The translations under genes and the position numbers were made by a program. A DNA stretch of 64,000 nt from Desulfitobacterium dehalogenans ATCC 51507 (GTDB taxonomy: Bacteria; Bacillota; Desulfitobacteriia; Desulfitobacteriales; Desulfitobacteriaceae), in assembly GCF_000243155.2 (NCBI RefSeq), contig NC_018017.1:1364001-1428000 (forward strand), read 5' to 3'. The notes below the pieces were generated by a model that had not been told where the DNA came from, ran no database searches, and was given only the letters and a program-made list of their open reading frames with translations. Within the stretch, counting starts at the first letter, position 1, and the number at the start of each line of letters is the position of its first letter. Below, one piece after another: positions 2,241 through 57,036 of this stretch.

Positions 2241-2288
2241 TATTCCAGAAGGTAGTTTCTACAAAGATACGTAAAAATTTAAATAGGG

Positions 2289-2359
2289 CGTTCATATAAT
2301 CGCGGAGATAGGGTCTGCAAGTTTCTACCAGGCTGCCGTAAATGGCCTGACTATGAGCG
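2289..2359 (+). ncRNA. purine riboswitch aptamer (guanine type)
   Basis: The conserved purine-riboswitch core is present: ATATAATC, AAGTTTCTACC, CCGTAAAT and GACTATG. P1 is closed by CGTTCAT (2289-2295) with ATGAGCG (2353-2359). The J3/1 base is C (GACTATG, not GATTATG), which specifies guanine rather than adenine. It lies just ahead of a second aptamer and has no terminator of its own. Confidence 0.93.
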
Positions 2360-2361
2360 AA

Positions 2362-2548
2362 AGTGTGCCTAGGGTCTTACCCGAGCGGCACAGGTCTGAT
2401 GGCTGTGTGTACTAAGGTGGCTTCTCAAAGGAGTGGACCTTAGCTTGCTGTTGGATTACAACTTTTCGCTGCTTGCACCCGCTAAAGAGCTGGAGCCTAG
2501 TGGTGAATGGTCGTGGACAAAAAGCCCAGGCGGGTAGGTTTCACTCTT
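2362..2548 (+). ncRNA. PRPP riboswitch (ykkC subtype 2b), tandem with the guanine aptamer
   Basis: The ykkC hallmark elements are readable: GTGCCTAGGGTCTTACCCG near 2364 and the 3' conserved ACAAAAAGCCCAGGCGGG near 2518. Subtype 2b members upstream of purine genes bind PRPP, and tandem guanine-PRPP aptamers sharing one expression platform have been described (Breaker laboratory, 2018). The 3' strand GCGGGTAG is also the 5' arm of the terminator, so aptamer folding should antagonise termination. Subtype is assigned by context; ppGpp (2a) and guanidine (1) types share the core. Confidence 0.8.
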
Positions 2549-21592: not shown

Positions 21593-21695
21593 CTCTCATC
21601 TCCCAGTATTTCCTGCAGGATTTAGCACCGTGCATTTTCATGTCGGTTGCCGGGTTTCATCGGGCCAGTCCCTCCACCTACTCTGGATAAGAGTG
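21593..21695 (-). ncRNA. SAM-I (S-box) riboswitch aptamer
   Basis: Read on the minus strand, the core is CTTATCCAGAGTAGGTGGAG, GGGACTGGCCCGATGAAACC, CGGCAACC, GGTGCTAAATCC and finally GAGATGAGAG, closing P1 with the 5' CTCTTATC. This is a textbook S-box. High SAM should stabilise it and terminate transcription ahead of metNIQ. Confidence 0.96.
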
Positions 21696-40862: not shown

Positions 40863-40915
40863 GAATCCTTGTAAAGAGGGCTTGGAGACCTTCTTTATAA
40901 GGATTCTTTCCTTAA
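40863..40915 (+). terminator. intrinsic terminator after hisIE
   Basis: GAATCCTTGTAAAGA and TCTTTATAAGGATTC form a long stem with a GG...CC inner closing, followed by a weak T-rich tail (TTTCCTT). Confidence 0.65.
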
Positions 40916-41112: not shown

Positions 41113-42192
41113 TTGTTGTTTGACCAAAAAAAACTAAGAAGTAGAAAACTATCGTTTATAGGCATTGTCCTGATAACACTTGGGTTATTAACTGCGTGCA
41201 ATGGGAAACCTGTACAACAGGAAGAAGTTAAAAAGTTTGACAGCACGGATATCGCCATGGGTACGGTCATAAGTCAAAGGGTCTTTGGGGATAATGGACA
41301 GGCAGCAATCGACGAAGCTCTGGAGAAGATCAGGAGCCTGGAGAACCTTTTGACCTTCAATGCTCCAGGGGGAGATGTTAACAAACTCAATGAATATGCT
41401 GGAAAGCAAAGTGTAGAGCTCCAGCCGGAGACATTGCTTATTTTGAAAGAGTCCAAGACAATAGCCGAACTCAGCGGGGGAGCCTTTGATGTAACCGTTG
41501 GTCCTATAGTGAAAAGTTGGGGAATTGGTACGGATAATGCACGAATTCCATCTGAAGCGGAATTAAAAGAACAGTTGCCTCTCGTCAATTATAAGAATTT
41601 GATTATTGAGGGGAACACAGCTTACCTTAAACAAGCGGGCCAGATGGTGGATTTGGGTGGTATTGCCAAAGGGTATGCCGGAGACGCAGCTGTTGAAGTC
41701 TATAAAAAGCTTGGTATTACTTCCGCCTTCATCAATCTTGGCGGTAATGTGGTTACTGTGGGAAGTAAGCCTGATGGCAGCCTTTGGACTGTTGGGGTGC
41801 GTAACCCCCGTCCTGCTAATGAAGAAGACGATCAGATTGTGGGTATGATTACTGTAGCGGATAAAGCGGTTGTGACTGCCGGGGACGATCAGCGTTTTTT
41901 TGAAGTAGACGGTGTACGTTATCACCATATTCTTAATCCTCACACAGGCTATCCTGCCCAATCGGATTTGATGAGCGTCACCTTGGTGACGGATTCTTCT
42001 TTGGTGGCCGATGCCTTGGACACAGCTGTATATATTCTTGGCTTGGAAAAAGGTAGGGCGATGCTCGAAAAGTATGGTGGAGTGGAAGCTGTTTTTATCA
42101 CCAGAGATAAAAAAATCTATATTACAGATGGACTTAAGGATAGTTTCCAATTCTATGATGAAAGCAAGGAATATGAGTTGGTCGAAGAATAA
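41113..42192 (+). CDS. apbE: FAD:protein FMN transferase lipoprotein (ApbE/FmnB)
   Basis: Covalently attaches FMN to Ser/Thr of exported flavoproteins. TTG start at 41113 (or the next TTG), with AAGGAG 6-9 nt upstream. Signal peptide with lipobox LLTAC (Cys29). ApbE hallmarks are MGTVISQRVFG, GGAFDVTVGPIV, VDLGGIAKGYAGDAA, NLGGNVVTVG and HHILNPHTGYPA. 359 aa. First gene of a likely flavin electron-transfer operon whose flavinylation targets are encoded 2.3 kb downstream. Confidence 0.93.
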   Translation: MLFDQKKLRSRKLSFIGIVLITLGLLTACNGKPVQQEEVKKFDSTDIAMGTVISQRVFGDNGQAAIDEALEKIRSLENLLTFNAPGGDVNKLNEYAGKQSVELQPETLLILKESKTIAELSGGAFDVTVGPIVKSWGIGTDNARIPSEAELKEQLPLVNYKNLIIEGNTAYLKQAGQMVDLGGIAKGYAGDAAVEVYKKLGITSAFINLGGNVVTVGSKPDGSLWTVGVRNPRPANEEDDQIVGMITVADKAVVTAGDDQRFFEVDGVRYHHILNPHTGYPAQSDLMSVTLVTDSSLVADALDTAVYILGLEKGRAMLEKYGGVEAVFITRDKKIYITDGLKDSFQFYDESKEYELVEE

Positions 42193-42231
42193 GGCCTATT
42201 AATTGCCGGGTATAGGGGACTGGAGATAAAC

Positions 42232-42621
42232 ATGAAAGCAGAAGGTAAAAGAAAAAAAGGTGATTTGATCATTATTCTGGTCGTTCTCTTAATCGGAGTT
42301 GGTGCGGCAATGCCTTGGCTCTGGAATCAGATTAATCCAGGAGCAAAAAGTGCAGGGCGGGAACATATTGCTGTCATTACCCGGGACGGTAAGGAAGTTG
42401 CCAGAATTAATCTAGATAGTGTAACTGAACCCCAGCATTTTCATTATGAAGATGGAATTGAATTAACGATAGTTGCTGAGAACGGAACGATTCGATTTTT
42501 AGAATCCCAATGTCCTGACCAAATCTGTGTAAGATCCGGAGTTTTGAGTAAGCCCGGTGATTTCGCGGCCTGTTTGCCTGCGGGAACCATAGTGACCATT
42601 GAGGGTGATGAATATGAATAG
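42232..42621 (+). CDS. NusG domain II membrane-anchored protein (EetA-like)
   Basis: 129 aa: one N-terminal membrane helix (LIIILVVLLIGVGAAMPWLW) and an external NusG_II domain with the Cys pair in ESQCPDQICVRSG and CLPAGTIVTIEG. In Listeria, EetA has this architecture and is needed for extracellular electron transfer. The stop overlaps the next gene by 8 nt. Exact biochemical role is unknown in any organism, as far as I know. Confidence 0.8.
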   Translation: MKAEGKRKKGDLIIILVVLLIGVGAAMPWLWNQINPGAKSAGREHIAVITRDGKEVARINLDSVTEPQHFHYEDGIELTIVAENGTIRFLESQCPDQICVRSGVLSKPGDFAACLPAGTIVTIEGDEYE

Positions 42622-43249
42622 AAGTAAGCGCTTTGCGATAATTATCATCCTGGTCACCAATGCGATCATTATATCCTTTCTTGAATCCTTCATTCCCGTA
42701 CCAATTCCTGTACCCGGTATTAAGCTGGGTTTGGGTAATATTATTACCATGATCGCCATTGTTTTTTTGGGATTTAAAGATGTCTTATTTATTGTGTTAG
42801 TCCGTTGTTTTGTAGTGGCTATACTGACCCGGGGCGTAATGATGCTTGCCTTTAGCTTGACGGGAGGTATATTAAGTGCACTGGTCATGTGGCTGCTGTA
42901 CAGAAAACTCTCCAGATTTTTCAGTATTAAGGGAATAAGCATTGCTGGAGCTATCGTTCATAATACGACCCAGATTACCATTGCATCCTTCATTCTTGGT
43001 CAAGCGGTGGTTTTCTATTACTTGCCAATACTTCTTATATCCGCCGTGGTTACAGGCTTGGTCACCGGGAGTATAGGTGAACTGGCAATTAATGAAATAA
43101 ATAAAAAAGAAATTTTCAAAAAAGATCCTGAGCCCCATGAAAGTGCGGAAGAGCAGGTTGCTTTAAAGCCTGGAGATGATCGGGAACTTATCCATACCGG
43201 AACGAATGACAATAAAGAAGTACAGGATTCCGGTGTAGAAGGGAATTAA
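42614..43249 (+). CDS. Gx transporter / heptaprenyl-diphosphate-synthase component I-like membrane protein (EetB-like)
   Basis: 211 aa with about five helices. VPIPVPGIKLGLGNIITMIAI is the signature of the Gx family. ATG 42614 has GAGG 9 nt upstream; an in-frame TTG at 42599 is less likely. The C-terminal ~45 residues are a charged cytoplasmic tail. It overlaps the NusG_II gene and precedes the EcfT-like gene, the order seen for EetA-EetB in flavin-based electron transfer loci. Some Gx proteins are annotated as heptaprenyl synthase subunits, but no partner is here. Confidence 0.8.
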   Translation: MNRSKRFAIIIILVTNAIIISFLESFIPVPIPVPGIKLGLGNIITMIAIVFLGFKDVLFIVLVRCFVVAILTRGVMMLAFSLTGGILSALVMWLLYRKLSRFFSIKGISIAGAIVHNTTQITIASFILGQAVVFYYLPILLISAVVTGLVTGSIGELAINEINKKEIFKKDPEPHESAEEQVALKPGDDRELIHTGTNDNKEVQDSGVEGN

Positions 43250-43282
43250 GATGAAATACAGTAGAAGAGATTTGAGTGGCCT

Positions 43283-44098
43283 ATGGCGAAGGATTTAACA
43301 GCAATACATTCTGACGAAGAAAATAAGGGGTTAAATAAAGCGGAATACTTTAGGATGGATGGACTTGTCAAGCTAATCCTAGCGATTCTGCTTATGGTTA
43401 TGCCCTTTTGGTTCCGGTACCCTTTGAGCTTTGGACTTTTAAGCATTTATTTAATCCTGATCGCATGGGTTTTTAAGGTTGATTTGAGAACAATAGCGAT
43501 CAGCGGGGCGTCCTTTGGAATTATTGTACTTATTCCTTATTTCTTCGGCTTGTTAATGAATGCTCTCTTCTTTTATTTTTCCCGGAATCCCATGTTTGCT
43601 TTCCAAGGGTTTGGCGCGGTTTTCCTAAGGCTTTTTAAGATTTTTGTTATTTGGTATATCAGTATCCTGTATTTCCACACCACGCCAATGAGAACCTTTA
43701 TCGGAATGCTGGATAAATTTTTAATGCCTTTAAAAAGGCTGGGGCTGCCGGTTCAAGATTATTTGAAGGTTGTTATGTGTATCGTAGACCAGCTGAAAGA
43801 TACAGGCTCTGAAGTTAAAAAGAGCTTGGGAGAAAAAATGCGTGCTGTAGTTGGGGAAGAGAGGCGTAAGCTCAGAATTAATGTGAAAGGGATTTCTCAG
43901 ATTATCGTTAATCTTATCGTTGATTCCTTCGAAAAAATTGATAAAATTCAAGAATATGTTGATAAAGTGAGCCCCGAGGAGTTGTACCATTATCGGTTCA
44001 AATTCACTCTTAAGGACGGAGTAGCTCTTGTGAGTTTCGTCGTGTTTCTAGGGATCATTTGGATTATAGAGAATGGAATAATAAATGGGATACTATAG
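43283..44098 (+). CDS. EcfT/CbiQ-like membrane protein (FmnA-like)
   Basis: 271 aa. About five helices, with the cytoplasmic coupling segment (FLMPLKRLGLPVQDYLKVVM and KKSLGEKMRAV) typical of ECF T-components. In Listeria FmnA is such a protein and exports or supplies FAD for ApbE. No ECF ATPase is beside it. It follows the Gx gene by 33 nt and is closed by a terminator, so the FMN-lipoprotein gene downstream has a separate promoter. Confidence 0.75.
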   Translation: MAKDLTAIHSDEENKGLNKAEYFRMDGLVKLILAILLMVMPFWFRYPLSFGLLSIYLILIAWVFKVDLRTIAISGASFGIIVLIPYFFGLLMNALFFYFSRNPMFAFQGFGAVFLRLFKIFVIWYISILYFHTTPMRTFIGMLDKFLMPLKRLGLPVQDYLKVVMCIVDQLKDTGSEVKKSLGEKMRAVVGEERRKLRINVKGISQIIVNLIVDSFEKIDKIQEYVDKVSPEELYHYRFKFTLKDGVALVSFVVFLGIIWIIENGIINGIL

Positions 44099-44117
44099 AA
44101 GTAGTAAGGCTGGAGTA

Positions 44118-44160
44118 TAGCGGTCAAGAGTCCATAAGGGGGATTCTTGACCGCTATTTT
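44118..44160 (+). terminator. intrinsic terminator after the EcfT-like gene
   Basis: TAGCGGTCAAGAGTCC pairs with GGATTCTTGACCGCTA; TTTTGATT follows. Confidence 0.85.
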
Positions 44161-44254
44161 GATTGTTTAATGGGAACTGAAGTTTTGATAATTAGGTTTC
44201 CGAAAATTAATTATCTATTAATTATTTAAATTGAAAGAATTCTAAATTTATGTA

Positions 44255-44283
44255 TTGACAGAAAAACCTCTTTCTGATAAAGT
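44255..44283 (+). promoter_or_regulatory. promoter of the FMN-lipoprotein gene
   Basis: TTGACA, 17-nt spacer, TAAAGT. The ~245-nt leader that follows to the start codon is A+T-rich with repeated ACATNTATTG-like units (44320-44370), possibly a regulator site. Confidence 0.6.
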
Positions 44284-44529
44284 CTATTTGAGAAAAGCTT
44301 GTTGTGACAAATATTGCGAATACATATATTGTCGAAACATGTATTGCAATTACATTTATTGAAGGTGCAAGTATATGTAAGTTTGTGTTTATCTTCTTTT
44401 TCTCTACAAGTGCTTTCTCAAATTACTTTATGAAGACTACGGAAAGGGGGACAGGAGAGGGGCTGTTCTGAAAGACTTAGTTTTCAACAAAAAGTGTATA
44501 AAGGTAGTTTCACAAGGAGGAGGAAGGAA

Positions 44530-45777
44530 ATGAAAAAGATTAAATCTATAATGTCAGTTTTTGCCTTAGGTACTGTTCTCGTATTAAGTGGGTGCACAGG
44601 TGGCCAAACTACACCGGCTACCGCGGTTAAGGATCCGGCTCCTGCTCAAGATGGAAAATATAAAGATGGGAATTATTTTGCACAGCAAGATGCATTTGCC
44701 AAAGGTTGGAAGTATATGGTGACCATCGAAGTTAAAGACGGTAAAATCGCTTCCGCTGATTGGAATGGCGCCAATGAAAAAGGTGGACCGGATAAAGTTG
44801 CATTCTCTGCTTCTGGTCAATATGGTATGAAAAAAGGTGGTGCTCAGGCAGAATGGCATGAGCAAGCCGAAAAAGCAGAAGCCTATCTTGTTCAAACTCA
44901 AGACCCCACCAAGATCAACTATAAGGATGACGCAGGACATAGCGATGACATTGCCGGCGTATCCGTCAGTGTTAAGGATTTCTTCGAACTAGCTAAAAAA
45001 GCTTTGGATGCTGGTCCAGTAGACAAAGGTCCATATAAAGATGGTGCATACTATGCTGAAGCCCCTATGTATGGTAAAGATGGTTGGAAATATTCCGCTA
45101 GCCTTACTGTAGTCAATGGAAATATCGTAGCTGCTGATTGGAATGGCTTAAACGTTAAAGGCGGCAAAGATAAAGATACGTTATCTGCAGATGGCGAATA
45201 TGGCATGAAAGAAAAAGGGAAAGCCCAAGCAGAATGGCACGAACAAGCACAAAAAGCAGAAGCTTACCTCCTGAAAACTCAAGATCCCACTAAGGTTAAC
45301 TACAAGGATGATGCAGGTAAAACTGATGATATTGCCGGAGTATCCATCAAAGTTAAGGACTTCTTCGAGCTGGCTAAAGCTGCTTTAGACAAGGGACCGA
45401 TTGCCCAGGGTTCCTATAAAGATGGTATCTACTACGCCGCTGACGAAAAATTTGAAAAGGGCTGGAAATACATGGCCAGCATCGTAGTTAAGAATGGAAC
45501 TATCGTTGGTGTTGACTGGAACGGTATTCCTGAGGACGCTACCAAGCCAAATAAAGACGTTCAATCCACTAACGGTGATTACAAACTCGCCCCTGGAAAC
45601 CAAGGTGAATGGGCTGTGCAAGCACAAAAAGCAGAAGCTCATCTCCTGAAAACTCAAGATCCGACTAAGATCACCTACAAAGATGATGCCGGTCATTCCG
45701 ATGATATCGCTGGGGTATCCGTAACAGTAGGTGAGTTCTTCAAACTAGCTCAAAAAGCTCTTGAAGGTGCCAAATAA
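44530..45777 (+). CDS. extracellular lipoprotein with three FMN-binding domains (PplA-like)
   Basis: 415 aa from ATG 44530 with GGAGGAGGAAGG upstream. Lipobox LSGC (Cys22). Three repeats of about 120-130 residues each begin G.YKDG.Y and end with DPTK..YKDDAG..DDIAGVS.. V. The DDIAGVS motif fits the ApbE flavinylation consensus (D-x-x-[ST/A]-G-A/V-[ST]), giving candidate FMN sites at Ser145, Ser272 and Ser397. Listeria PplA has two such domains, so this one has an extra. It has its own promoter and terminator and lies between two apbE genes. Likely carries electrons outside the membrane. Confidence 0.88.
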   Translation: MKKIKSIMSVFALGTVLVLSGCTGGQTTPATAVKDPAPAQDGKYKDGNYFAQQDAFAKGWKYMVTIEVKDGKIASADWNGANEKGGPDKVAFSASGQYGMKKGGAQAEWHEQAEKAEAYLVQTQDPTKINYKDDAGHSDDIAGVSVSVKDFFELAKKALDAGPVDKGPYKDGAYYAEAPMYGKDGWKYSASLTVVNGNIVAADWNGLNVKGGKDKDTLSADGEYGMKEKGKAQAEWHEQAQKAEAYLLKTQDPTKVNYKDDAGKTDDIAGVSIKVKDFFELAKAALDKGPIAQGSYKDGIYYAADEKFEKGWKYMASIVVKNGTIVGVDWNGIPEDATKPNKDVQSTNGDYKLAPGNQGEWAVQAQKAEAHLLKTQDPTKITYKDDAGHSDDIAGVSVTVGEFFKLAQKALEGAK

Positions 45778-45806
45778 TAGTTTTTAGGCAAAATAATACT
45801 AATACC

Positions 45807-45846
45807 ATGAAGAAGCGGTTTCTACTGCTTCTTCATTTCTTTCTCC
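45807..45846 (+). terminator. intrinsic terminator after the FMN-lipoprotein gene
   Basis: ATGAAGAAGCGGT pairs with ACTGCTTCTTCAT; TTTCTTTCT follows. Confidence 0.85.
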
Positions 45847-45925
45847 TATTAAAAAACATCAATTCATACTATAATATAGCTTGAGACAGGATTCTTACTC
45901 TCAAAGATGGAGGTTTTCTTATACT

Positions 45926-47026
45926 ATGCGAGCTTTAAGACCGTCACCCTTCAAATCTAGGTTAATTATGATTTTAACTTGTTTATGCTTGAGCTTTTCT
46001 CTAGTGGGATGTTTGGCTACAGAGACCAAGGTGAAGGAGTTTGAACCTGTAGTCGAAACAACTTTTTTGATGGGGACAGTAGCAAAGATCACCATCTACG
46101 ATGAGATTACAGATAAAGAGATCTTTCAGAAGATTTTTGATCGTCTCACAGATATTGAGCAAAGAATGACTATTAATGATGACTATCCAAACAGTGAGAT
46201 TATCCAGTTGAATAAAGCTTCAGGTAAGGAGTTTGTGAAAATAAACGCCGATACATTTTACGTTTTAGAGAAGGCGAAATATTTCGCTGAACTTTCTCAA
46301 GGAAAATTCGATATTACTGTAGGCCCCATTGTAAAGCTTTGGAATATCGGCTCAGATAATGCTCGGGTCCCTGGTGAAGATGAAATAAACGAGAAGTTAC
46401 CTTTGGTTGATTATCATGAGCTTATTCTCGATAAAGAAAGTTCGAGTGCTAAATTGAACCAAGAGGGTATGGTGGTGGATTTGGGGGCTATCGCCAAAGG
46501 GTATGCTGCGGATGAGGCGGCAAAAATCCTCAAAGAGGCTGGAATCAAGCACGCCATTGTTAACCTTGGGGGCAATATTGTGGCTATAAATACCAAACCC
46601 GACGGATCTCTTTGGCGGCTTGGCTTGCAGGATCCTTATGAAATCAGAGGAAAATCCATGGGTGTGGCTCTGCTCAATGACCAGACCATGGTCTCATCCG
46701 GGACCTATGAACGATACTTCGAAGAAGATGGCAAAGTCTATCATCACCTGATTGATCCGGACACAGGCTATCCCGGAGAAAATGGGCTGATCAGTGTTTC
46801 CATCATTACTAAGGAGTCTATTAATGCCGATGGTTTATCCACCGGTACCTTCCTTCTGGGCCTTGAGGAAGGTATGAAAATGATCGAAGAAATGCCCGAT
46901 ACGGAAGCAATATTCATCACCGCCGATAAAAAGGTGTATGTAACGTCAGGCATCAACGACTCGAACTTTGAAATTACAAACCCGGATTATCATCTGCAGA
47001 CCAGCACTTTCTCAGAGGTTAAGTAG
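45926..47026 (+). CDS. apbE: second FAD:protein FMN transferase lipoprotein (ApbE)
   Basis: 366 aa. ATG 45926 is chosen; GGAGG is 12 nt upstream, a little far, and a start at 45968 cannot be excluded. Signal peptide with lipobox SLVGC. ApbE motifs: MGTVAKITIYD, GKFDITVGPIVKLW, VDLGAIAKGYAADEA, NLGGNIVAI and HHLIDPDTGYPG. It differs clearly from the copy at 41113, so it is not a recent duplication. It may serve a different flavoprotein or give redundancy. Confidence 0.92.
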   Translation: MRALRPSPFKSRLIMILTCLCLSFSLVGCLATETKVKEFEPVVETTFLMGTVAKITIYDEITDKEIFQKIFDRLTDIEQRMTINDDYPNSEIIQLNKASGKEFVKINADTFYVLEKAKYFAELSQGKFDITVGPIVKLWNIGSDNARVPGEDEINEKLPLVDYHELILDKESSSAKLNQEGMVVDLGAIAKGYAADEAAKILKEAGIKHAIVNLGGNIVAINTKPDGSLWRLGLQDPYEIRGKSMGVALLNDQTMVSSGTYERYFEEDGKVYHHLIDPDTGYPGENGLISVSIITKESINADGLSTGTFLLGLEEGMKMIEEMPDTEAIFITADKKVYVTSGINDSNFEITNPDYHLQTSTFSEVK

Positions 47027-47152: not shown

Positions 47153-48895
47153 TTAATGCTTGATCATTTGAGTATCTGGGTCGATGGCTGCTTCATCATC
47201 ACAGCAAGGGTAGGGGTTAAATTCTTTTTTGTAGTCATCTAAGGCTTTATTCGGATCAAAGCCTTGGATGGAGTAAGTGGTATAGCCACCGGTGAGATTT
47301 AAGACCCGATAGCCCTTTTGGGAAAGAATCCGGTCGGCGAAATAGCCTCTTAACCCGACTTGGCAATAGACAATAATTAATTTTTCAGGATCCAGCTCTT
47401 GGATACGCTGGCGAAGGTCATCCACGGGAATATTTATAGCTCCTTCCACATGACCCATAGCAAATTCAACTTTAGTCCGAACATCAACAAAAATATAGTC
47501 TTCGTCTATCTTTTTCAGGTCGTCCCAGACCATCATGTGAGCTTTACCGGATAAAACATTCTGAGCCACATACCCGGCCATATTGACAGGGTCTTTAGCT
47601 GAGGAGAAGGGCGGTGCATAGGCCAATTCCAGTTCGGTTAGATCCTCAATGGACCCCCCAAGGCGGATGACCGTGGCGATAACGTCAATGCGTTTATCTA
47701 CCCCATCCCCGCCGATGCCCTGGGCGCCGAAAATCTTTCCATCGTTACCGAAGATGAGCTTTAGGGTCATAGGGTAAGCATTAGGGTAATAGGAAGCATG
47801 GGAAACAGGATGAATATGAATTACATGAAAAGGTAGATTGGCCCGTTGCAGCGTTCTCTCATTAGCACCGGTGCTGGCCGCGGTGAGATCAAAAATCTTG
47901 AGGATTGCAGTCCCCTGAGTGCCCTTGTAGGTTGAATTTAATCCGGCGATATTATCCGCTGCAATTCGTCCTTGCTTGTTAGCCGGACCGGCCAGAGGAA
48001 TGGCCATTTTTGTCTTGGTTATATAGTCCAAGACCTCGACAGCATCCCCCACGGCATAGACATGGGGAATATTCGTTTCCATAGATTCGTTAACGATCAG
48101 ATGGCCTTTGGGTCCCAGTTCTAAACCGCTTTCTTTTAGGAATCCTGTATCAGGAGTGACGCCAATCGCTAAGATGATAAAATCTCCCTGGAGCTTCGTA
48201 TTACTGGCCAGGGTCACTTCAACTTGGTTATCCAGATCTTGAAAGGATTTTACGCCATCACTCAATATGAGGCGAATTCCGTGGTCCACGAGCTTTTTCT
48301 CCGCAAGGACCACCATATCCGTATCAAAGGGGGCGAGGATATGGGGGGCGGCTTCGACGAGAGTCACATTTAATCCCCGTTCCCTGAGGTTTTCAGCCAT
48401 CTCAACTCCCACAAAACCACCGCCAATGACAATGGCGCTGTGAACGCCTTTTTGATCCACTATGCCTTTGATAGCATCCGTATCGGGAATATTGCGGAGA
48501 GTGAGGATTCTCTTGCTGTCTATGCCGGGAATATTGGGTCGCAAAGCCTTTGCGCCGGGGGAGAGAACGATGGAATCGTAACTTTCTTCATAGGTTCCTC
48601 TGGACTGGCTTTTGACGAGAACTTTCTTGTTATCTGTATCAAGCTTTATGACTTCACTGCGAATTCGAACATCAATATTGAAGCGGGCTTTCATATCTTC
48701 CGGGGTCTGAACCATTAATCGCTCCCGTTTATTAATAGCTCCTCCAATATAATAAGGTAATCCGCAATTGGCAAAAGAGATGTAGTCATCACGTTCAAAA
48801 AGGATGATTTCTGCTTCTTCATCCAAACGTCTTAGTCGAGCTGCTGCGGAGGCTCCGCCGGCCACTCCACCGACAATGAGTACTTTTTTCTTCAT
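47153..48895 (-). CDS. CoA-disulfide reductase / NAD(P)H persulfide reductase with C-terminal rhodanese
   Basis: 580 aa. ATG 48895 has AAGGA 9 nt upstream. FAD-binding VLIVGGVAGGASAAARLRRL, then the single redox Cys44 in YISFANCGLPY, typical of CoADR. NAD-binding IVIGGGFVGVEMAENL; FAD-binding YAVGDAVEV. The last ~100 residues are a rhodanese domain with Cys511 in VYCQVGLRG, giving the fused CoADR-Rhd type that reduces persulfides and polysulfide. A CC pair sits near the C-terminus. Downstream of, and probably controlled by, the ArsR gene 18 nt ahead. Confidence 0.92.
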   Translation of the reverse strand: MKKKVLIVGGVAGGASAAARLRRLDEEAEIILFERDDYISFANCGLPYYIGGAINKRERLMVQTPEDMKARFNIDVRIRSEVIKLDTDNKKVLVKSQSRGTYEESYDSIVLSPGAKALRPNIPGIDSKRILTLRNIPDTDAIKGIVDQKGVHSAIVIGGGFVGVEMAENLRERGLNVTLVEAAPHILAPFDTDMVVLAEKKLVDHGIRLILSDGVKSFQDLDNQVEVTLASNTKLQGDFIILAIGVTPDTGFLKESGLELGPKGHLIVNESMETNIPHVYAVGDAVEVLDYITKTKMAIPLAGPANKQGRIAADNIAGLNSTYKGTQGTAILKIFDLTAASTGANERTLQRANLPFHVIHIHPVSHASYYPNAYPMTLKLIFGNDGKIFGAQGIGGDGVDKRIDVIATVIRLGGSIEDLTELELAYAPPFSSAKDPVNMAGYVAQNVLSGKAHMMVWDDLKKIDEDYIFVDVRTKVEFAMGHVEGAINIPVDDLRQRIQELDPEKLIIVYCQVGLRGYFADRILSQKGYRVLNLTGGYTTYSIQGFDPNKALDDYKKEFNPYPCCDDEAAIDPDTQMIKH

Positions 48896-48913
48896 ATTGG
48901 TCAATCCTTTCTT

Positions 48914-49198
48914 TTACACTTCTTGAAGAACATCGCTGACAAGTTGGGTAATTCTTTGATTTTTTATTTTGTAATAAATTTCTAATCCACTCCTGCGGTA
49001 TTCCACGATACCGGCGGAACGCAATTTCTGCAAATGTTGTGATATTGTGGACTGAGGAGTATTGAGACAAGTATGCATGGAGGTTACATTGGACTCCCCC
49101 ATTTCCAGCAACTTGCTTACAATACAAAGTCTTACCGGATGAGCCAAAACCTTGAGTAATTCAGCAACCTCGTTGTATTTTGCGTAACCATGATCCAA
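48914..49198 (-). CDS. ArsR/SmtB-family regulator, possibly thiol or persulfide sensing
   Basis: 94 aa winged-helix repressor. TTG start at 49198 with AGGCGG 7 nt upstream. HTH: TCLNTPQSTISQHLQKLRSAGIV. Metal-site motif ELCVCDL is absent; instead Cys occurs in VRLCIVSKL and in MHTCLNTP. Linked CoADR-rhodanese suggests sulfur species as signal. Persulfide-sensing ArsR proteins also use Cys pairs, though in different positions, so this is inference. Confidence 0.85.
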   Translation of the reverse strand: MDHGYAKYNEVAELLKVLAHPVRLCIVSKLLEMGESNVTSMHTCLNTPQSTISQHLQKLRSAGIVEYRRSGLEIYYKIKNQRITQLVSDVLQEV

Positions 49199-50422: not shown

Positions 50423-51481
50423 ATGAAGCATCGGTTTCGATTTAAGACCCTGCTTGGGATGTCGCTTCTTGCATTTGCTTTGGCAGGGTGTTCCCACACA
50501 AGCCCGGCGGCTGTAATTGAACCGGGTAGTAGTGAAGCGCCTTTGGTGGAACAGTTTGAATCTGTCAGGCAAGTCGTGGAGGATTTTCTCTCAAGTGATA
50601 AAGTGGTCTCTATGACGCCCGAGGAGCTTTATCAAATTGTTCAGGAGCGTAATGATCATTACTACTTAGTGGATATAAGAGCCAATCAGGATTTCATCAA
50701 TAGCAATATCCAAGGCTCAGTCAGCATTCCCTACGCTCAAACTTCTGACCCTGAAAGGCTAGAGGCTTTGCCCAAAGACAAAACCCTGGTGGTTATTGAC
50801 TATAATGGCCATCAGGCAGCGCAAACAGCTGCCACTTGGAATCAGCTGGGATATCAGGCGGTACCGCTTCTCTATGGAGTACAAAGCTGGACACAGGAAG
50901 CATCATCCATCGGTTATGAAGCATTTCCCGGTCAACCCCTTAACAACACTCTAGTTACAGAAGTCAATCCAATAGTCCTTTCGGAGAATACATCTCCAGA
51001 AATTAAATACCCTGAGGGGAAAACCCAGGATTATATAGCTCAGACCACCAGAACGTATCTGGATCGGAATTATAAAGGAGTGATTACTGCGGAAGAACTT
51101 TATGGCGAGCTTCAACAGGGTTCTACAGACCACTACTTTTTAGTGGACATTCGAGACCTGAAGCATTATCAGCAGGGTCACATTGAAGGATCTGTCAATA
51201 TTCCTCTCGATCAATTGGCCGACCCGGATAAGGTTAAGAGCTACTCGCCGGATAAGCGCATAGTCTTGATTGGCTATGACGGTATGGATGCCAGCCAGGG
51301 TTCCCGAAGCTTGGTCACCTTAGGCTATGATTGTGTGGCTCTGAAGTATGGAATGAGCTATTGGAGTGCCGAGGAGGAAGCTACAGGAGTGACTCCGGTG
51401 CACAACCTTGTTAAGGAATATTACCAATTAACTCCGTTGAACTATCTCCCACCGAGTACAGGTGCTGCAGGTTGCGGTTGA
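50423..51481 (+). CDS. lipoprotein with two rhodanese-like domains lacking catalytic Cys
   Basis: 352 aa, signal peptide with lipobox ALAGC. Two rhodanese folds: LVDIRANQDFINSNIQGSVS then VVIDYNGHQAAQTA, and LVDIRDLKHYQQGHIEGSVN then VLIGYDGMDASQGS. In active enzymes the position after the beta strand is Cys (CxxGHxAS); here it is Asp and Gly. It may bind sulfane sulfur or act as a structural partner rather than a transferase. First gene of the operon, 26 nt before the molybdoenzyme. Confidence 0.85.
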   Translation: MKHRFRFKTLLGMSLLAFALAGCSHTSPAAVIEPGSSEAPLVEQFESVRQVVEDFLSSDKVVSMTPEELYQIVQERNDHYYLVDIRANQDFINSNIQGSVSIPYAQTSDPERLEALPKDKTLVVIDYNGHQAAQTAATWNQLGYQAVPLLYGVQSWTQEASSIGYEAFPGQPLNNTLVTEVNPIVLSENTSPEIKYPEGKTQDYIAQTTRTYLDRNYKGVITAEELYGELQQGSTDHYFLVDIRDLKHYQQGHIEGSVNIPLDQLADPDKVKSYSPDKRIVLIGYDGMDASQGSRSLVTLGYDCVALKYGMSYWSAEEEATGVTPVHNLVKEYYQLTPLNYLPPSTGAAGCG

Positions 51482-51507
51482 CGGATTACGGACAAGGAGG
51501 AAAGGTT

Positions 51508-53706
51508 ATGCGGCCAATATCACGTCGGTCCTTTTTAAAAATTGCTGCGGCCACTACAACAGCAGTTGCTCTGCCTCAAGCATTGAATATGAACTTCAAA
51601 GCCTTTGCTCAGGATGCCAAGACTGCAGAAGTCACACGGGTTCCATCACTTTGCAATGGATGCTCCAGTTACTGTGGAGTATGGGCTTATGTGAAGAACG
51701 GCAGACTGTGGAAGATCGAGGGTAATGAAATTCATATGAAATCCAGGGGACATCTCTGTGCGCGGGGGCATGGGATTGCTCAGAATGTGTATAACCCTGG
51801 ACGGGTAACCCAACCCATGAAGCGTGTGGATGACAAAAACAATTTCCAACCTATGACCTGGGAGGAAGCCTTCCAGGAGGTCGGGGCTAAGATGAAAGCC
51901 ATTGTGGAGGAGCATGGCGGCGATAAAATGGTCTGGGCTTGCCATGGGGGTAAGGAAACTTACGCTCAGCAATTTATGGATATTATCGGCTCTGCCACCT
52001 ATATAACCCACTATGCCACCTGCTTTTCAGCTAAGACCAATATCTGGCAAAACATGGTGGGCGGTATGTTTAACCCGGATTTAGATCAAGCCAAAACCAT
52101 GCTCTTTGTGGGAAGAAACTATGCCGGGGGAATTATTCCCGCTGCTATGAAACGGATAACGGAAGCCAAGGCCAAAGGAGCCAGGATCATCGTAGTGGAT
52201 CCCCGTTTCTGTGAATTGGCGACCATCGCCGATGAATGGATTCCTATTCGGCCCGGAACAGACTTAGCCTTCTTTTTAGGAATCGCACACACTTTAATTA
52301 CGGAAAACCTCTATGATAAGGATTTTGTGGAGCAATACGTTTACGGCTTTGACGAGTTCTGGATGCATAATAAGGATTTTAGCGCCGATAAGGCAGCCGC
52401 CATTTGTGGTATTGCTGCGGATAAGATTCGTGAAATCGCCAGGGAATTAGCCAAGAGTGCTCCCCAAGCCTTCCTGGATCCGGGCTATCACGGATTGGCC
52501 GCCCACTACCAAAATTCCAATGAGACCATGATGTTGAATATTATCATCAACGCTCTCCTCGGCAACTTCTGGAAAGCGGGTGGACTATTCCCAGCCGCCA
52601 GCACTACTTTCGGTCATCCTGAGGCCACCTATTACGGGCCTACTGCTGTAAAAGGGATCCGGGCAGACGGTGCCGGTGAAGCCAGAGAATATCCTTTAGT
52701 GGAACCTTCCCGTGGTATTCCCCAGAGGATCCCCGACATGATCGAAAAGGGAAGAGCTAAAATGGTATTCTTTTACTCCTACAATCCTTTGCGTTCAGCC
52801 CCTGAACCGGAATACCAAAAGAAAATTAAAAATGCGGATTTAGTAGTAAGCATTCCTTATGACTGGAATGAAACCTCTCTCTATACCGCCCATTATATTC
52901 TACCTGAGAACCACTATCTGGAGCGGACGGAGCACCCAAAGGTTATCAATGGTAATATCTATTGGCCGGCAGCCCAAGTGGCAACCCGCTTTAAAGCTTT
53001 GGAGAGCACCACCTCGAGTCTTGACCTGTTGGATATTATGAAAGGCTTGACTAAGGCTTACGGAATTGAAAATCTCTATGGCTATACCGTGGAGGAAGAA
53101 TTGGAAGTAGCTTTAGGTCCCATAGGGATCAGTGTGGATGAACTTCGGGAAAAGGGATGTATAGAGCTTATGCCCTCAGTACTACCCAAAGACGAAGGCT
53201 TAACCTTCAGCACCTTTACCGGAAAAATAGAGTTCTCTATAGGAGCCTGGAGGAAGGAAGGGTATCTGGGTGTACCCACATGGGTGCCACCCCTGGTGGA
53301 GCCTAAGGAAACCAACGAGTTCCGCTTGATTCATGGCAAACAACCCTGGCATTCCCATATTATGACTACCAATAATCCGTATTTGATGGCTATCACAGAA
53401 GAGAAAAAGGGAACCACCATGTGGATGAACAGTTCCCGCGCAATTGAGCTAGGTATTCAGGAGGGGGACTGGGTTAAAGTCACCAGTGATATAGCCACTA
53501 AGCAGGTGCAGATTCATGTAACAGAAGGTCTCCATCCGGAATGTGTTTGGATTCCCTCGACTTATGGGACCTTTTCCGAAAAGTTAGAGCTTGGATTCGG
53601 TAAAGGCGTGAATTATAACGATTTTATTCCTGCCCGGATAGATAAGAAGACCGGTCATGTCATGGGACAGGAATGTATCGTGACTATTGCAAAGGGGGGG
53701 AAATGA
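51508..53706 (+). CDS. Tat-exported molybdopterin oxidoreductase, PhsA/PsrA-like catalytic subunit
   Basis: 732 aa. ATG 51508 with AAGGAGG upstream. Twin-arginine signal SRRSFLKIAAA. [4Fe-4S] ligands Cys49, Cys52, Cys56 (CNGCSSYCGV) and Cys84 (GHLCARGHG). Mo ligand probably Cys172 in YATCFSAKT. Molybdopterin motifs follow, and the C-terminal domain has LIHGKQPWHSH. With FeS and NrfD partners this resembles thiosulfate/polysulfide reductases; flanking rhodanese genes favour a sulfur substrate. Arsenate, tetrathionate or other reductases of the family are not excluded. Confidence 0.9.
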   Translation: MRPISRRSFLKIAAATTTAVALPQALNMNFKAFAQDAKTAEVTRVPSLCNGCSSYCGVWAYVKNGRLWKIEGNEIHMKSRGHLCARGHGIAQNVYNPGRVTQPMKRVDDKNNFQPMTWEEAFQEVGAKMKAIVEEHGGDKMVWACHGGKETYAQQFMDIIGSATYITHYATCFSAKTNIWQNMVGGMFNPDLDQAKTMLFVGRNYAGGIIPAAMKRITEAKAKGARIIVVDPRFCELATIADEWIPIRPGTDLAFFLGIAHTLITENLYDKDFVEQYVYGFDEFWMHNKDFSADKAAAICGIAADKIREIARELAKSAPQAFLDPGYHGLAAHYQNSNETMMLNIIINALLGNFWKAGGLFPAASTTFGHPEATYYGPTAVKGIRADGAGEAREYPLVEPSRGIPQRIPDMIEKGRAKMVFFYSYNPLRSAPEPEYQKKIKNADLVVSIPYDWNETSLYTAHYILPENHYLERTEHPKVINGNIYWPAAQVATRFKALESTTSSLDLLDIMKGLTKAYGIENLYGYTVEEELEVALGPIGISVDELREKGCIELMPSVLPKDEGLTFSTFTGKIEFSIGAWRKEGYLGVPTWVPPLVEPKETNEFRLIHGKQPWHSHIMTTNNPYLMAITEEKKGTTMWMNSSRAIELGIQEGDWVKVTSDIATKQVQIHVTEGLHPECVWIPSTYGTFSEKLELGFGKGVNYNDFIPARIDKKTGHVMGQECIVTIAKGGK

Positions 53707-54254
53707 TGGCTGACTATGTGATGTTCATTGACCCCAACAGATGTACAGGCTGCAATGCGTGCCGAATCGCCTGCCAGACCCAGTGGGGTTTAGCACCGAG
53801 TATGAATTTTAACAGCCTTATCGAACAGGAGACAGGGAAATATCCTAAGGTTCAACGGTTTATTACTCCCGTCCAATGTCAGCATTGCGACGATGCTCCT
53901 TGCCAAACCGTTTGCCCAACGGGAGCGACATACAAGAGGGAAGATGGAATCGTTTTAATCGATGCCCAAAAGTGCATTGGCTGTAAATATTGTATGGTGG
54001 CCTGCCCCTACAATGCACGGGTCATTAATGAGCACGGAGTGCCGGAGAAATGCCGATTCTGTGCTGAGTATGTGGTCAATGGGGAAACACCGGCTTGCGT
54101 ATCTACCTGTATGAATGATGTACGCGTTTTTGGTGACCTGGATGATCCCAATAGCCCCCTTCATGAACTTCTCAAGAACCAAGAAGTTGTTCAGCTCCGG
54201 GCTGATCTCCATACCAAGCCGAGAATCTACTATGCCAAGAGTAAACGGATTTAG
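53706..54254 (+). CDS. four-cluster ferredoxin subunit of the molybdoenzyme (PsrB/PhsB-like)
   Basis: 182 aa. The start ATG at 53706 overlaps the upstream TGA, with GGGGGG 5 nt before it. Cys motifs for four [4Fe-4S] clusters: CTGCNACRIAC, CQHCDDAPCQTVCPTGA, CIGCKYCMVACPYNA and CRFC with later CVSTC. Carries electrons from the membrane subunit to the catalytic subunit on the outer face of the membrane. Confidence 0.95.
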   Translation: MADYVMFIDPNRCTGCNACRIACQTQWGLAPSMNFNSLIEQETGKYPKVQRFITPVQCQHCDDAPCQTVCPTGATYKREDGIVLIDAQKCIGCKYCMVACPYNARVINEHGVPEKCRFCAEYVVNGETPACVSTCMNDVRVFGDLDDPNSPLHELLKNQEVVQLRADLHTKPRIYYAKSKRI

Positions 54255-54265
54255 GAGGTGAGCTC

Positions 54266-55414
54266 ATGGAAAAAAGAAAGTATCAGCGAAGTATTTGGAC
54301 CTATTTGTCCCTTCTTTTGTTGGCCTTTGCTGTAGCAGGAGCCATTAATAAGTACCTGATCAGCGGGGAACATGCCTTTGGAGTTACCCCGGACGTTCCT
54401 TGGGGGGCGTTAATTTCCGGCTATGTCTTCTTTGCAGTTGCCGCTACCGGGACAGGGCTTGTGGGTTCCTTAGGCCACGTCTTCCGCATCAAGAAATTCG
54501 AAGTTCTATCCAAGCGCGCTCTACTTGCCTCCATACTCTTGCTTCTTTCCGCTTTCATCGTGCTGGCAGTGGAGCTGTCCAATCCCTTTAAGATGGTTTA
54601 CCTCTTGCTTTTGCCTAATTTGTCCAGTCCAATTCTTTGGATGGGGGTCTTTTATGGGTTCTATCTGGTTTTGCTTTTCGGTGAATTCTTTTTCACCATG
54701 AAAGACAATCACAAAGTCGCTACAGGTATTGCTTATGTGTCCTTTGTTGTTAAATTATCCGCTATCATAAATTTAGGCAGAGTTTTTGGATTCACGACCA
54801 CCCGCAGCTTTTGGGATGGGTATTACTACCCGGCGTATATGGTCGTCTCAGCGGTGGTTTCCGGTGCTGCAGTGCTGTCGATTATTCTCTATCTATCCAA
54901 TAAAAATTCGTACAATTCCTTTGCACAAGACTCTCAAGGAAAAGAGCTATCTAGAACCTTAAGTCAGATCTTAGCAGGTGCCCTGATGGTTTTTGCCCTC
55001 TTCCAGGCTGTAAAGGTAGGCACATCTCTAGGCAGTGAGAATATAACGGTGGCTCAGGCAGCTAAAGCCTTGATATCCGGTCCTATGGCCGTACCTTTCT
55101 GGTTGATGGAAGTACTTGCAGGAATTGTGGCTCCCTTACTGATTCTCTATCGATCCAAATTCTCATCCCCGGGGCTATCCTTCTGGGCCGGAATCCTGAC
55201 CATGCTTGGTCTGCTCTTTTCCAGGCTGGACTTTGTCTACGCCGGTCAAGTGGTGCCCTTACAAATTACAGATGAAGCTACCAAGGCTATGCATGTATTC
55301 AATGCTTATTCGCCAACTTGGAGTGAATGGTCTCTGATTATTGGGGCTATAGGCTTAATTATCCTAGTGTTCGATTATGCCGAGAGCAAATTCTCTCTGG
55401 ATTCTCATCATTAA
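54266..55414 (+). CDS. NrfD-family membrane subunit (PsrC-like quinol oxidase)
   Basis: 382 aa with about 9-10 helices. Segments such as WGALISGYVFFAVAATGTGL, NPFKMVYLLLLPNLSSPILW and PFWLMEVLAGIVAPLLILY are NrfD-like. It should oxidise menaquinol and pass electrons to the FeS subunit. GGAGG lies 7 nt before the ATG; 11 nt after the ferredoxin gene. Confidence 0.92.
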   Translation: MEKRKYQRSIWTYLSLLLLAFAVAGAINKYLISGEHAFGVTPDVPWGALISGYVFFAVAATGTGLVGSLGHVFRIKKFEVLSKRALLASILLLLSAFIVLAVELSNPFKMVYLLLLPNLSSPILWMGVFYGFYLVLLFGEFFFTMKDNHKVATGIAYVSFVVKLSAIINLGRVFGFTTTRSFWDGYYYPAYMVVSAVVSGAAVLSIILYLSNKNSYNSFAQDSQGKELSRTLSQILAGALMVFALFQAVKVGTSLGSENITVAQAAKALISGPMAVPFWLMEVLAGIVAPLLILYRSKFSSPGLSFWAGILTMLGLLFSRLDFVYAGQVVPLQITDEATKAMHVFNAYSPTWSEWSLIIGAIGLIILVFDYAESKFSLDSHH

Positions 55415-55434
55415 GCGAGAATGAAGGTGTGACT

Positions 55435-56097
55435 ATGAATAACACCTGTCCCTCCCCGCAGGCCTTGCAGGATCTGCTACGGCTTTTTGCAGAGTTCTTT
55501 GCGTTTCCCGATGAGGATTTCTGTGAAGCGGTCCGCGGGGGGAGTGTGGACCTACAGGTAAAAGAACTAAGTCAAAGGGCAGGAGTGCCCATTGAAAGTG
55601 AACTCGAGAAGGATGCTCTAAGCTACGAAGAGTGGGTAACCTCATATAATCGCTGCTTCTTGGGAGTTCAAAAGCCTTTTGCACCACCCATTGAGTCCAT
55701 CTATAAACCATGGACCACAGATGAAAGTTTTCAAGTACCCTTTAAAAATCAAAAAGGGTACCTTATGGGGGATTCTGCACAGCATGTTCAACATATCCTT
55801 AAGTCCTTTGGGTTGGAAATCCCACAGGAATACACCATGATGCCGGACCACCTTGTCATCTTGTTGGAATTGTTAGCCTTTCTGGTGGGCAGCGGTTTTG
55901 AAAAAGAGGCCAAGCAGTTATGCCAGGACCATTTTGACTGGCTGCCGGATTTGCAAAAGGCCATTGAAGAACTTCCCGCCAATGGACGTATTTTCATCGC
56001 TGCTCTTAGAGAATTAGAGGACATTCTCCAGGCTTTCATGAGTCATGCTCGGAATCATAGACTTTTGAAAGAGACTATTGACTACTCAAACTTCTGA
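55435..56097 (+). CDS. TorD/DmsD-family molybdoenzyme chaperone
   Basis: 220 aa from ATG 55435; the open frame beginning at 55327 inside the nrfD gene is not a true start. Family features are GVPIESELEKDALSYEEWVTSYNRCFLG and the PP...ES(I)Y motif (PPIESIYKPWT), followed by MPDHLVILLELLAFL. Such chaperones bind the Tat signal and hold the apo-catalytic subunit until cofactor insertion. Its presence in the operon supports a complete, functional export pathway. Confidence 0.9.
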   Translation: MNNTCPSPQALQDLLRLFAEFFAFPDEDFCEAVRGGSVDLQVKELSQRAGVPIESELEKDALSYEEWVTSYNRCFLGVQKPFAPPIESIYKPWTTDESFQVPFKNQKGYLMGDSAQHVQHILKSFGLEIPQEYTMMPDHLVILLELLAFLVGSGFEKEAKQLCQDHFDWLPDLQKAIEELPANGRIFIAALRELEDILQAFMSHARNHRLLKETIDYSNF

Positions 56098-56148
56098 ATT
56101 AAATTGACTCATTACGAGTCGGTTTAAATAATAAAAGGGGGAAAAAGA

Positions 56149-57036
56149 ATGTTTAAACAATCAAAAGCCTTTACTCTGGTTATCTCTCTTCTACTTGTTC
56201 TCAGTCTCATTACAGGTTGCGGATCCGCGACCGCTACCACCACACCTGCTCAACCGCCTTCAAGTCAAGAACCGGCTAAACCGGAAACTCCTGCTCAACC
56301 TGAACAACCGGCTGCAGCTGCTCCTACAGTAGAGTCCAACACCTTAGGCTGGGATGATTGGTCAGCCAAAATGAAAGGCACCATTAACAAAGATTACTAT
56401 ATCGTAGACTTAAGAACTCCCGATGAAATCAAACTGGAGAAAGCCTTAGAAGGATCAATCAATATTGATGCTAATGCAACCCTTGGCACAGGAAATACCG
56501 ATGTTATCGACGAAAAACTGCAAGGTGTATCCAAAGATACAGTCATCCTTGTCCATTGTAAATCCGGTGGAAGAGCTAAAAAGAATCTTCAAGCTTTCTT
56601 GGACAAAGGTTATGTCAATACTTTTGCCCTTGACGGATGGACTGCTTTTGATGCCAAAGGCTATTTTGGTGCCACTAAAATAACCGCCAGCTCTGAGCAA
56701 CTTAAGCCTGATGCTTGGGTAGCGAAAATGCAAGGAACTATTGGTAAAGACTATTATGTCCTCGATGCCCGTGATAAGAGTGAATATGATGCCGGACATA
56801 TTGAAGGCGCATTGAATTTCGGTGTCAGAGATCAATTCACTGTGGATCATGCCGCAACCATCGCCAAAGTGAAGGAAGCCATTCCTAACAAAGATGCTTT
56901 AGTCCTGGTTCATTGCGCAGTAGGCGCCCGTGCGAAAGTGGCTCAGGCTCATCTGAAAGCTGAAGGCTATACCAATGTGGTAACATTGGACAATAAGATT
57001 ACTATTGATGCCAGCGGAAACTATAAGTTTGAATAA
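56149..57036 (+). CDS. lipoprotein with two active-type rhodanese domains
   Basis: 295 aa. Lipobox ITGC, then a Pro/Ala/Gln-rich spacer (about 30-60). Domain 1 catalytic loop is HCKSGGRAK, domain 2 HCAVGARAK; both keep Cys, unlike the rhodanese at the head of the operon. Each domain has the usual D-R/x-E entry (VDLRTPDEI, LDARDKSEYDAGHIEGA). Likely a periplasm-side sulfurtransferase for the molybdoenzyme's sulfur substrate or product. GGGGG ribosome site 9 nt upstream. Confidence 0.9.
   Translation: MFKQSKAFTLVISLLLVLSLITGCGSATATTTPAQPPSSQEPAKPETPAQPEQPAAAAPTVESNTLGWDDWSAKMKGTINKDYYIVDLRTPDEIKLEKALEGSINIDANATLGTGNTDVIDEKLQGVSKDTVILVHCKSGGRAKKNLQAFLDKGYVNTFALDGWTAFDAKGYFGATKITASSEQLKPDAWVAKMQGTIGKDYYVLDARDKSEYDAGHIEGALNFGVRDQFTVDHAATIAKVKEAIPNKDALVLVHCAVGARAKVAQAHLKAEGYTNVVTLDNKITIDASGNYKFE

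Follow-up and report, generated by a model that had tools for sequence, protein, structure and literature searches.

A candidate locus for menaquinol-fed, PplA-type outward electron transfer and cell-wide flavin loading in Desulfitobacterium dehalogenans

How could electrons leave a cell by way of flavoproteins when the locus for flavin-based extracellular electron transfer (EET) contains no gene for the NADH dehydrogenase Ndh2? This question is raised by six genes of Desulfitobacterium dehalogenans ATCC 51507, which lie in a stretch of 64,000 nt (the window, whose coordinates are used here) of the 4.32 Mb single-contig genome. All are on the forward strand in the order apbE1-eetA-eetB-fmnA, a gene for a PplA-like lipoprotein with three flavin mononucleotide (FMN) domains, and apbE2 (41113-47026; Table 1), which agrees with the six genes described in an initial annotation. 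With a probability of roughly 60%, we consider this locus to serve menaquinol-fed outward electron transfer of the PplA type and to act as the flavinylation hub of the whole cell. In the proposed mechanism, the first four genes (module 1) would export flavin adenine dinucleotide (FAD) via a transporter of the energy-coupling factor (ECF) type using ATPases encoded elsewhere, and ApbE1 would attach FMN to extracytosolic proteins, probably to all flavinylated respiratory proteins of the cell. ApbE2 and the three-FMN lipoprotein would make an electron carrier on the outer membrane face. Electrons would enter it from menaquinol, not from NADH via Ndh2, most likely through an unlinked NrfC-NrfD pair, would hop along the three flavins, and would pass to acceptors located within the cell wall or outside it, for which chelated Fe(III) and humic quinones are the probable candidates.

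With the EET locus of Listeria monocytogenes (FmnA, FmnB, PplA, Ndh2, EetA, EetB, DmkA, and DmkB), the locus shares the PplA-like and FmnB-like proteins, EetA, EetB, and the EcfT-like FmnA, and the initial assignment to a PplA/FmnB-type flavoprotein system was supported. Unlike the Listeria locus, it lacks Ndh2 and Dmk genes and has two apbE genes and a lipoprotein with three rather than two FMN domains; furthermore, it is predicted to consist of separate transcription units and is the sole flavinylation site of its genome. The dedicated NADH dehydrogenase and the genes for demethylmenaquinone synthesis, which had been described as missing, are indeed missing from the locus: neither DmkA nor DmkB was found among the open reading frames there or in the flanking DNA (a hepT gene is located at 2.82 Mb of the genome), and the locus contains no polyprenyl synthase gene. 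A search of the entire genome also revealed no Ndh2 of the Listeria EET type, the nearest protein being a coenzyme A (CoA)-disulfide reductase with 27 bits. The operational definition of Listeria EET, which requires an Ndh2-type NADH dehydrogenase with a transmembrane helix to be encoded in the cluster (PMC8238504), does not apply here because Ndh2 is absent, and the locus probably works like the outer half of that system.

A full ApbE domain with the Mg-site motif and a lipoprotein signal were identified, as is characteristic of the ApbE/FmnB family; ApbE1 has the lipobox LTAC and the motif ADALDTA. The published primer FTP1-F of Desulfitobacterium hafniense matches apbE1 exactly at 41200-41220, and the Ftp1/Ftp2 cluster of D. 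hafniense TCE1 (DeshaDRAFT_4346-4351; PMC5928378) is orthologous, with two ftp (apbE) genes, an FMN-binding lipoprotein, and exact or near-exact primer matches. In the accessible part of that publication, the cluster is described as being without clear function, and FAD export, kinship with PplA, and the electron source are not assigned. D. hafniense Ftp1 transferred FMN to PceC in vitro (PMC5928378).

For EetB and FmnA, no sequence matches were obtained in the PDB, and the structure of EetB was therefore modelled. The AlphaFold2 model (8 sequences, mean predicted local distance difference test score (pLDDT) 81) matched RibU-type ECF-S subunits best (5KBW: Z 16.0, 163 residues, root mean square deviation (rmsd) 2.9), while non-ECF proteins reached a Z of 8.8 at most, as expected for an ECF-S fold. 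FmnA is the most divergent of five CbiQ matches in the genome, and no transporter ATPases are encoded in the locus. The EetB protein of Listeria binds FAD and resembles ECF-S subunits; together with FmnA it exports the FAD used for flavinylation, and a deletion of eetA caused no EET phenotype (PMC9973259). The locus resembles this exporter in its ECF-S-like EetB, its divergent EcfT-like partner, and the adjoining eetA and apbE genes; it differs in that ApbE1 comes from a separate family-wide clade and in that a local EET NADH dehydrogenase is absent. The synteny of ApbE1 with EetA, EetB, and FmnA was found in 13 genomes of the class (G006, G011, G012, G022, G028, G030, G033, G036, G037, G042, G044, G045, and G056; G-numbers denote genomes, L-numbers loci in them), and in none of these was a PplA-like protein found, so that module 1 is independent of the lipoprotein. 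By sequence, model, and analogy, EetB and FmnA are therefore predicted to be an FAD-exporter module and not an electron-carrying part of the membrane. Altogether, genes for flavin supply, for two transferases, and for an outer carrier are present, and a trans-membrane electron path is not encoded.

The genome contains a single eetB and exactly two apbE genes, both in this locus. Elsewhere it encodes eleven FMN_bind proteins, nine of them with a canonical flavinylation motif and several of the size of fumarate reductases. Because no other apbE or eetB is present, the locus probably loads flavin on all extracytosolic flavoproteins of the cell. FMN_bind proteins without a recognisable motif by the pattern used are encoded at L041 5460-6665 and L046 5631-6494 of the same genome.

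The lipoprotein gene was confirmed, while its start had to be moved from 44494 to the ATG at 44530, which sits behind a conserved ribosome-binding site. The protein scored 20.4 bits against Pfam FMN_bind, just under the cut-off of 22, and was counted as PplA-like with 63.6 bits against NF041941, below the curated cut-off of 325. Sequence comparison with solved structures gave a match to 2KZX at 1.8e-39. Its AlphaFold2 model (35 sequences, mean pLDDT 85.6) consists of three consecutive domains of FMN_bind fold and matched 2KZX (Z 13.9, 114 residues, rmsd 3.2), 3O6U (Z 13.4, 107 residues, rmsd 2.1), and domain 2 of SaFMN3 (Z 7.7, 86 residues, rmsd 3.1). Each domain bears the motif DDIAGVS (residues 139, 266, and 391), and in the alignment with 2KZX the motif of domain 2 faces DAISGAT. 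The Ndh2-linked PplA homologues examined have two domains each. Serial, extracytosolic FMN_bind domains are shared with SaFMN3 and CbFMN4 (PMC10339131) and with proteins described in PMC8238504; unlike these proteins, the lipoprotein has DDIAGVS, belongs to the PplA lineage, and is accompanied by its own FmnB-like transferase.

The closest solved relative of both ApbE proteins is 7ESA, which we take to be the Listeria FmnB entry; ApbE2 is nearer to it than ApbE1 (298 vs 247 bits), and the next solved structure reaches 197 bits with ApbE2. The ftp2 primer of D. hafniense has two mismatches in apbE2 and matches exactly in the relative G003. Every strong relative within the genus and order has apbE2 directly 3′ of the lipoprotein gene. 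In a tree of 46 ApbE proteins, the nine PplA-adjacent proteins of ApbE2 type form one clade (100/99), which adjoins, with modest support (87/82), the ApbE proteins of PplA-Ndh2 loci from Paenibacillus, Fervidicella, and Oceanirhabdus. ApbE1 belongs to a separate clade of 18 members (100/99). These data suggest that ApbE2 may be dedicated to the GV[ST] sites of PplA.

With regard to the electron donor, no Ndh2 was found in the PplA-positive genomes of the class, and strong matches within the class were confined to a different family (G074-G081). Genes for Ndh2 and a polyprenyl synthase come after the PplA gene in Paenibacillus, Brevibacillus, Caloramator, and others. In four loci of the same order (L028, L030, L031, and L034), the PplA operon, with pplA and apbE on the same strand, ends with genes for a small protein, a 4Fe-4S protein NrfC of the twin-arginine translocation (TAT) type, and NrfD; in L028 and L030, the genes fmnA, histidine kinase, pplA, apbE, eetA, response regulator, eetB, small protein, nrfC, and nrfD are located on one strand, with an IS200-type transposase after fmnA in L030. 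NrfD-type proteins exchange electrons with menaquinol, and the initial suggestion that the menaquinone pool provides the electrons is plausible in view of these operons. The genome of D. dehalogenans itself encodes, at 2.82 Mb (L105 8524-10171), an NrfC-NrfD pair that lacks a catalytic subunit. The pair lies between resBC and hepT-tatAC, an arrangement shared by all four genus members. The NrfD of this pair has 57% identity with its PplA-linked counterpart in L034, and its clade is sister (84/84) to the one that comprises all the PplA-linked and heme-linked NrfD copies from the order relatives. This pair would be the most likely feeder of the lipoprotein. Literature linking NrfD with flavinylation and EET was not found among the publications searched, and Nrf or NrfD is not mentioned in the main texts of two large flavinylation surveys (PMC8238504 and PMC11334425).

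The small proteins encoded before nrfC-nrfD in the order relatives consist of a signal peptide, a short linker, and a C-terminal membrane helix, and mono-heme paralogues (one CxxCH) occur beside other NrfC-NrfD pairs (L113, L114, and L181), as do di-heme or multi-heme cytochromes (L178, L181, L183, L192, and L193). In the PplA operons, the heme motif is absent from three of the four small proteins, and all four contain D..[AS]GAS, which resembles the ApbE recognition pattern; the protein of L028 has both motifs. Three copies are present in L030 (0.006 expected in shuffled sequences) and one each in L028, L031, and L034 (P 0.0016-0.004), and in one motif, located shortly before the membrane helix, the residues D, G, A, and S are invariant. 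Flavinylation is possible at motifs carved into other proteins (PMC10722498), and different systems are known to exchange cytochromes and flavin domains with one another (PMC8238504). In this small set of sequences, a heme-to-flavin exchange inside one protein family is possible. The small protein with the GAS motif was not found in the D. dehalogenans genome or in the genus; 398 sampled genomes of the phylum also gave no match, but this sample contained no known positive and is therefore uninformative. The catalytic-subunit-free pair in L105 and those in the PplA operons of the relatives are like NrfC-NrfD quinol modules with c-type cytochrome outlets; unlike in the latter, the outlet in the PplA operons bears D..[AS]GAS, with the heme motif absent in three of four. 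A tentative extension, in our view doubtful though worth stating, would be a quinol-driven branch of flavin-based EET leading from menaquinol via NrfD/NrfC and a small anchored outlet protein to a multi-FMN PplA, with outlets swapped from heme to flavin in the order relatives; D. dehalogenans would run it with NrfC-NrfD encoded elsewhere, for the reduction of Fe(III) and humic substances without multi-heme cytochromes.

Two further arrangements of NrfC-NrfD were observed. In L186 3834-8858 (G042), which lacks PplA, the pair and EetA-ApbE1-EetB-FmnA are neighbours in divergent orientation and form another link of a quinol module to a flavin module. In L181 2111-16440 (G058), about 9 kb separate two NrfC-NrfD modules, of which one is accompanied by a six-heme cytochrome together with resBC and tatA and the other by the mono-heme anchored protein; this suggests exchangeable outlets.

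The locus is predicted not to form one transcript, as terminator-like hairpins follow module 1 and the lipoprotein gene, and a promoter precedes the latter. These two hairpins and one at 40863 were the longest found; hairpins of this sort are not more common here than in shuffled sequences. The leader of the lipoprotein gene (44284-44529, about 245 nt), which is partly conserved in the genus, contains 30-bp direct repeats at 44299-44358 and distant complementary arms at 44286-44295 and 44414-44423; it could possibly act as a regulatory RNA or an operator array. A conserved RNA structure in this leader was not convincing (covariation term -0.21, three sequences). In the search for an operator shared with the molybdopterin operon described below, repeats were present in each region and a common motif was absent. 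The window also contains an ordinary purine riboswitch (2272-2373, forward strand) and an S-adenosylmethionine riboswitch (21593-21693, reverse strand).

The gene content downstream of apbE2 equals that of Dhaf_1505 to 1513 in D. hafniense. An operon of Psr/Phs type starts 3.4 kb downstream of apbE2, and its reductase resembles the thiosulfate reductase PhsA (381 bits, below the cut-off). The corresponding D. hafniense genes Dhaf_1508-1513 were upregulated about 40-fold on Fe(III) (PMC3306737), so that the link to metal reduction drawn in the initial annotation is plausible. Among the acceptors used by Desulfitobacterium are Fe(III), Mn(IV), U(VI), and anthraquinone-2,6-disulfonate; in D. hafniense DCB-2, around ten genes for c-type cytochromes are present and multi-heme homologues are absent (PMC3306737). 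The main text of a DCB-2 proteome paper does not mention the locus tags. Divergently from apbE2, a CoA-disulfide reductase with a rhodanese domain and an ArsR-type regulator are encoded (47153-49198); Dhaf_1505, the counterpart of this region, was upregulated about 5-fold on oxygen exposure (PMC3306737).

Table 1. Coordinates and supporting evidence of the features described in the text
Feature	Position	Strand	Evidence or context
apbE1, lipoprotein FAD:protein FMN transferase, orthologue of D. hafniense TCE1 Ftp1	41113..42192	+	Pfam ApbE 2.3e-86
eetA-like, one N-terminal transmembrane helix (7-34) and NusG domain II	42232..42621	+	NusG_II PF07009 4e-27
eetB-like, predicted ECF-S type flavin (FAD) export subunit	42608..43249	+	PF07456 8e-45
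fmnA-like, divergent EcfT/CbiQ transmembrane subunit	43283..44098	+	CbiQ/EcfT 2.8e-6
Terminator-like hairpin closing the apbE1-eetA-eetB-fmnA unit	44117..44157	+	17 pairs, 8 GC, then TTTGATTGTT
Sigma-A-type promoter of the lipoprotein gene, TTGACA-17-TAAAGT	44255..44283	+	10/12 matches; conserved in alignment of four genus members
PplA-like lipoprotein, three FMN_bind-like domains	44530..45777	+	NF041941 PplA 1.7e-17
Terminator-like hairpin in the lipoprotein/apbE2 gap	45807..45836	+	13 pairs
apbE2, FmnB-like FMN transferase, PplA-linked clade, Ftp2 orthologue	45881..47026	+	Pfam ApbE 1e-89
Small membrane-anchored protein with D..[AS]GAS motifs, order relatives	L030 12302-12706; L031 5546-5968; L034 11109-11444; L028 3871-4239		between eetB/apbE and nrfC-nrfD
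Neighbouring operon (context)	50423..57036	+	Pfam/NCBIfam; gene content as Fe(III)-induced Dhaf_1508-1513
Operon gene 1, rhodanese lipoprotein		+	
Operon gene 2, molybdopterin reductase	51508-53706	+	
Operon gene 3, 4Fe-4S protein	53673-54254	+	
Operon gene 4, NrfD-type protein	54266-55414	+	
Operon gene 5, TorD-like protein	55435-56097	+	
Operon gene 6, rhodanese lipoprotein	56149-57036	+	

Several observations weigh against menaquinol-fed outward transfer by this locus. In the genus of D. dehalogenans, NrfC-NrfD is unlinked to the flavin locus, and the NrfD tree does not unite the PplA-linked copies to the exclusion of the heme-linked ones. The motif of the lipoprotein is DDIAGVS and not the consensus [ST]GA[ST], the family having mostly SGVS or AGVS, and at 27 bits the sequence match behind the EcfT assignment of FmnA is weak. 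No data on expression or on mutants of the lipoprotein gene were found, and the induction by Fe(III) concerns the neighbouring operon in another species, which is context and not evidence for the lipoprotein. On the other hand, the alternatives appear less convincing. The initial annotation had assigned EetA, EetB, and the EcfT-like protein to the membrane electron path, as in Listeria-type EET fed directly by the menaquinone pool. The gene content fits this apart from Ndh2 and Dmk; the published role of EetB-FmnA in FAD export, the eetA deletion without EET phenotype, the ECF-S fold of the EetB model, and the occurrence of the module in 13 PplA-free relatives make it highly improbable.

It is also rather unlikely that the locus is mainly a hub for flavin insertion into organohalide-respiration, fumarate-type, and NosR/NapH-type proteins, with the lipoprotein relaying electrons from membrane donors to periplasmic reductases and nothing leaving the wall. 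Its status as the only apbE/eetB site, the nine other proteins with flavinylation motifs, and the activity of orthologous Ftp1 on PceC would all be explained, but not so readily the second transferase that follows the lipoprotein in all genus and order relatives examined, nor the three serial FMN domains, which resemble multi-flavinylated carriers proposed for transfer over distance (PMC8238504). A single Fe(III)- or sulfur-respiration system formed by the lipoprotein and the neighbouring rhodanese/molybdopterin/NrfD operon seems improbable to us, even though the two units adjoin each other in the three genus members with sufficiently long contigs and the D. hafniense counterpart of the operon responds to Fe(III). 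The operon looks like a thiosulfate/polysulfide reductase with NrfD and FeS subunits of its own, it was not found beside PplA in the order relatives, and three other genes separate it from the lipoprotein unit.

D. hafniense DCB-2 respires Fe(III) despite its few c-type cytochromes, and the locus offers candidates for such a route in the form of a three-flavin carrier, its transferase, and a menaquinol donor. All covalent flavin loading, including that of PceC-type proteins of organohalide respiration, would be placed at one site. If the proposed donor is correct, NrfC-NrfD would add a quinol-fed type to the known membrane donors to flavinylated proteins, which comprise NQR, RNF, NapH-, MsrQ-, PepSY-, and DsbD-like proteins, and Ndh2.

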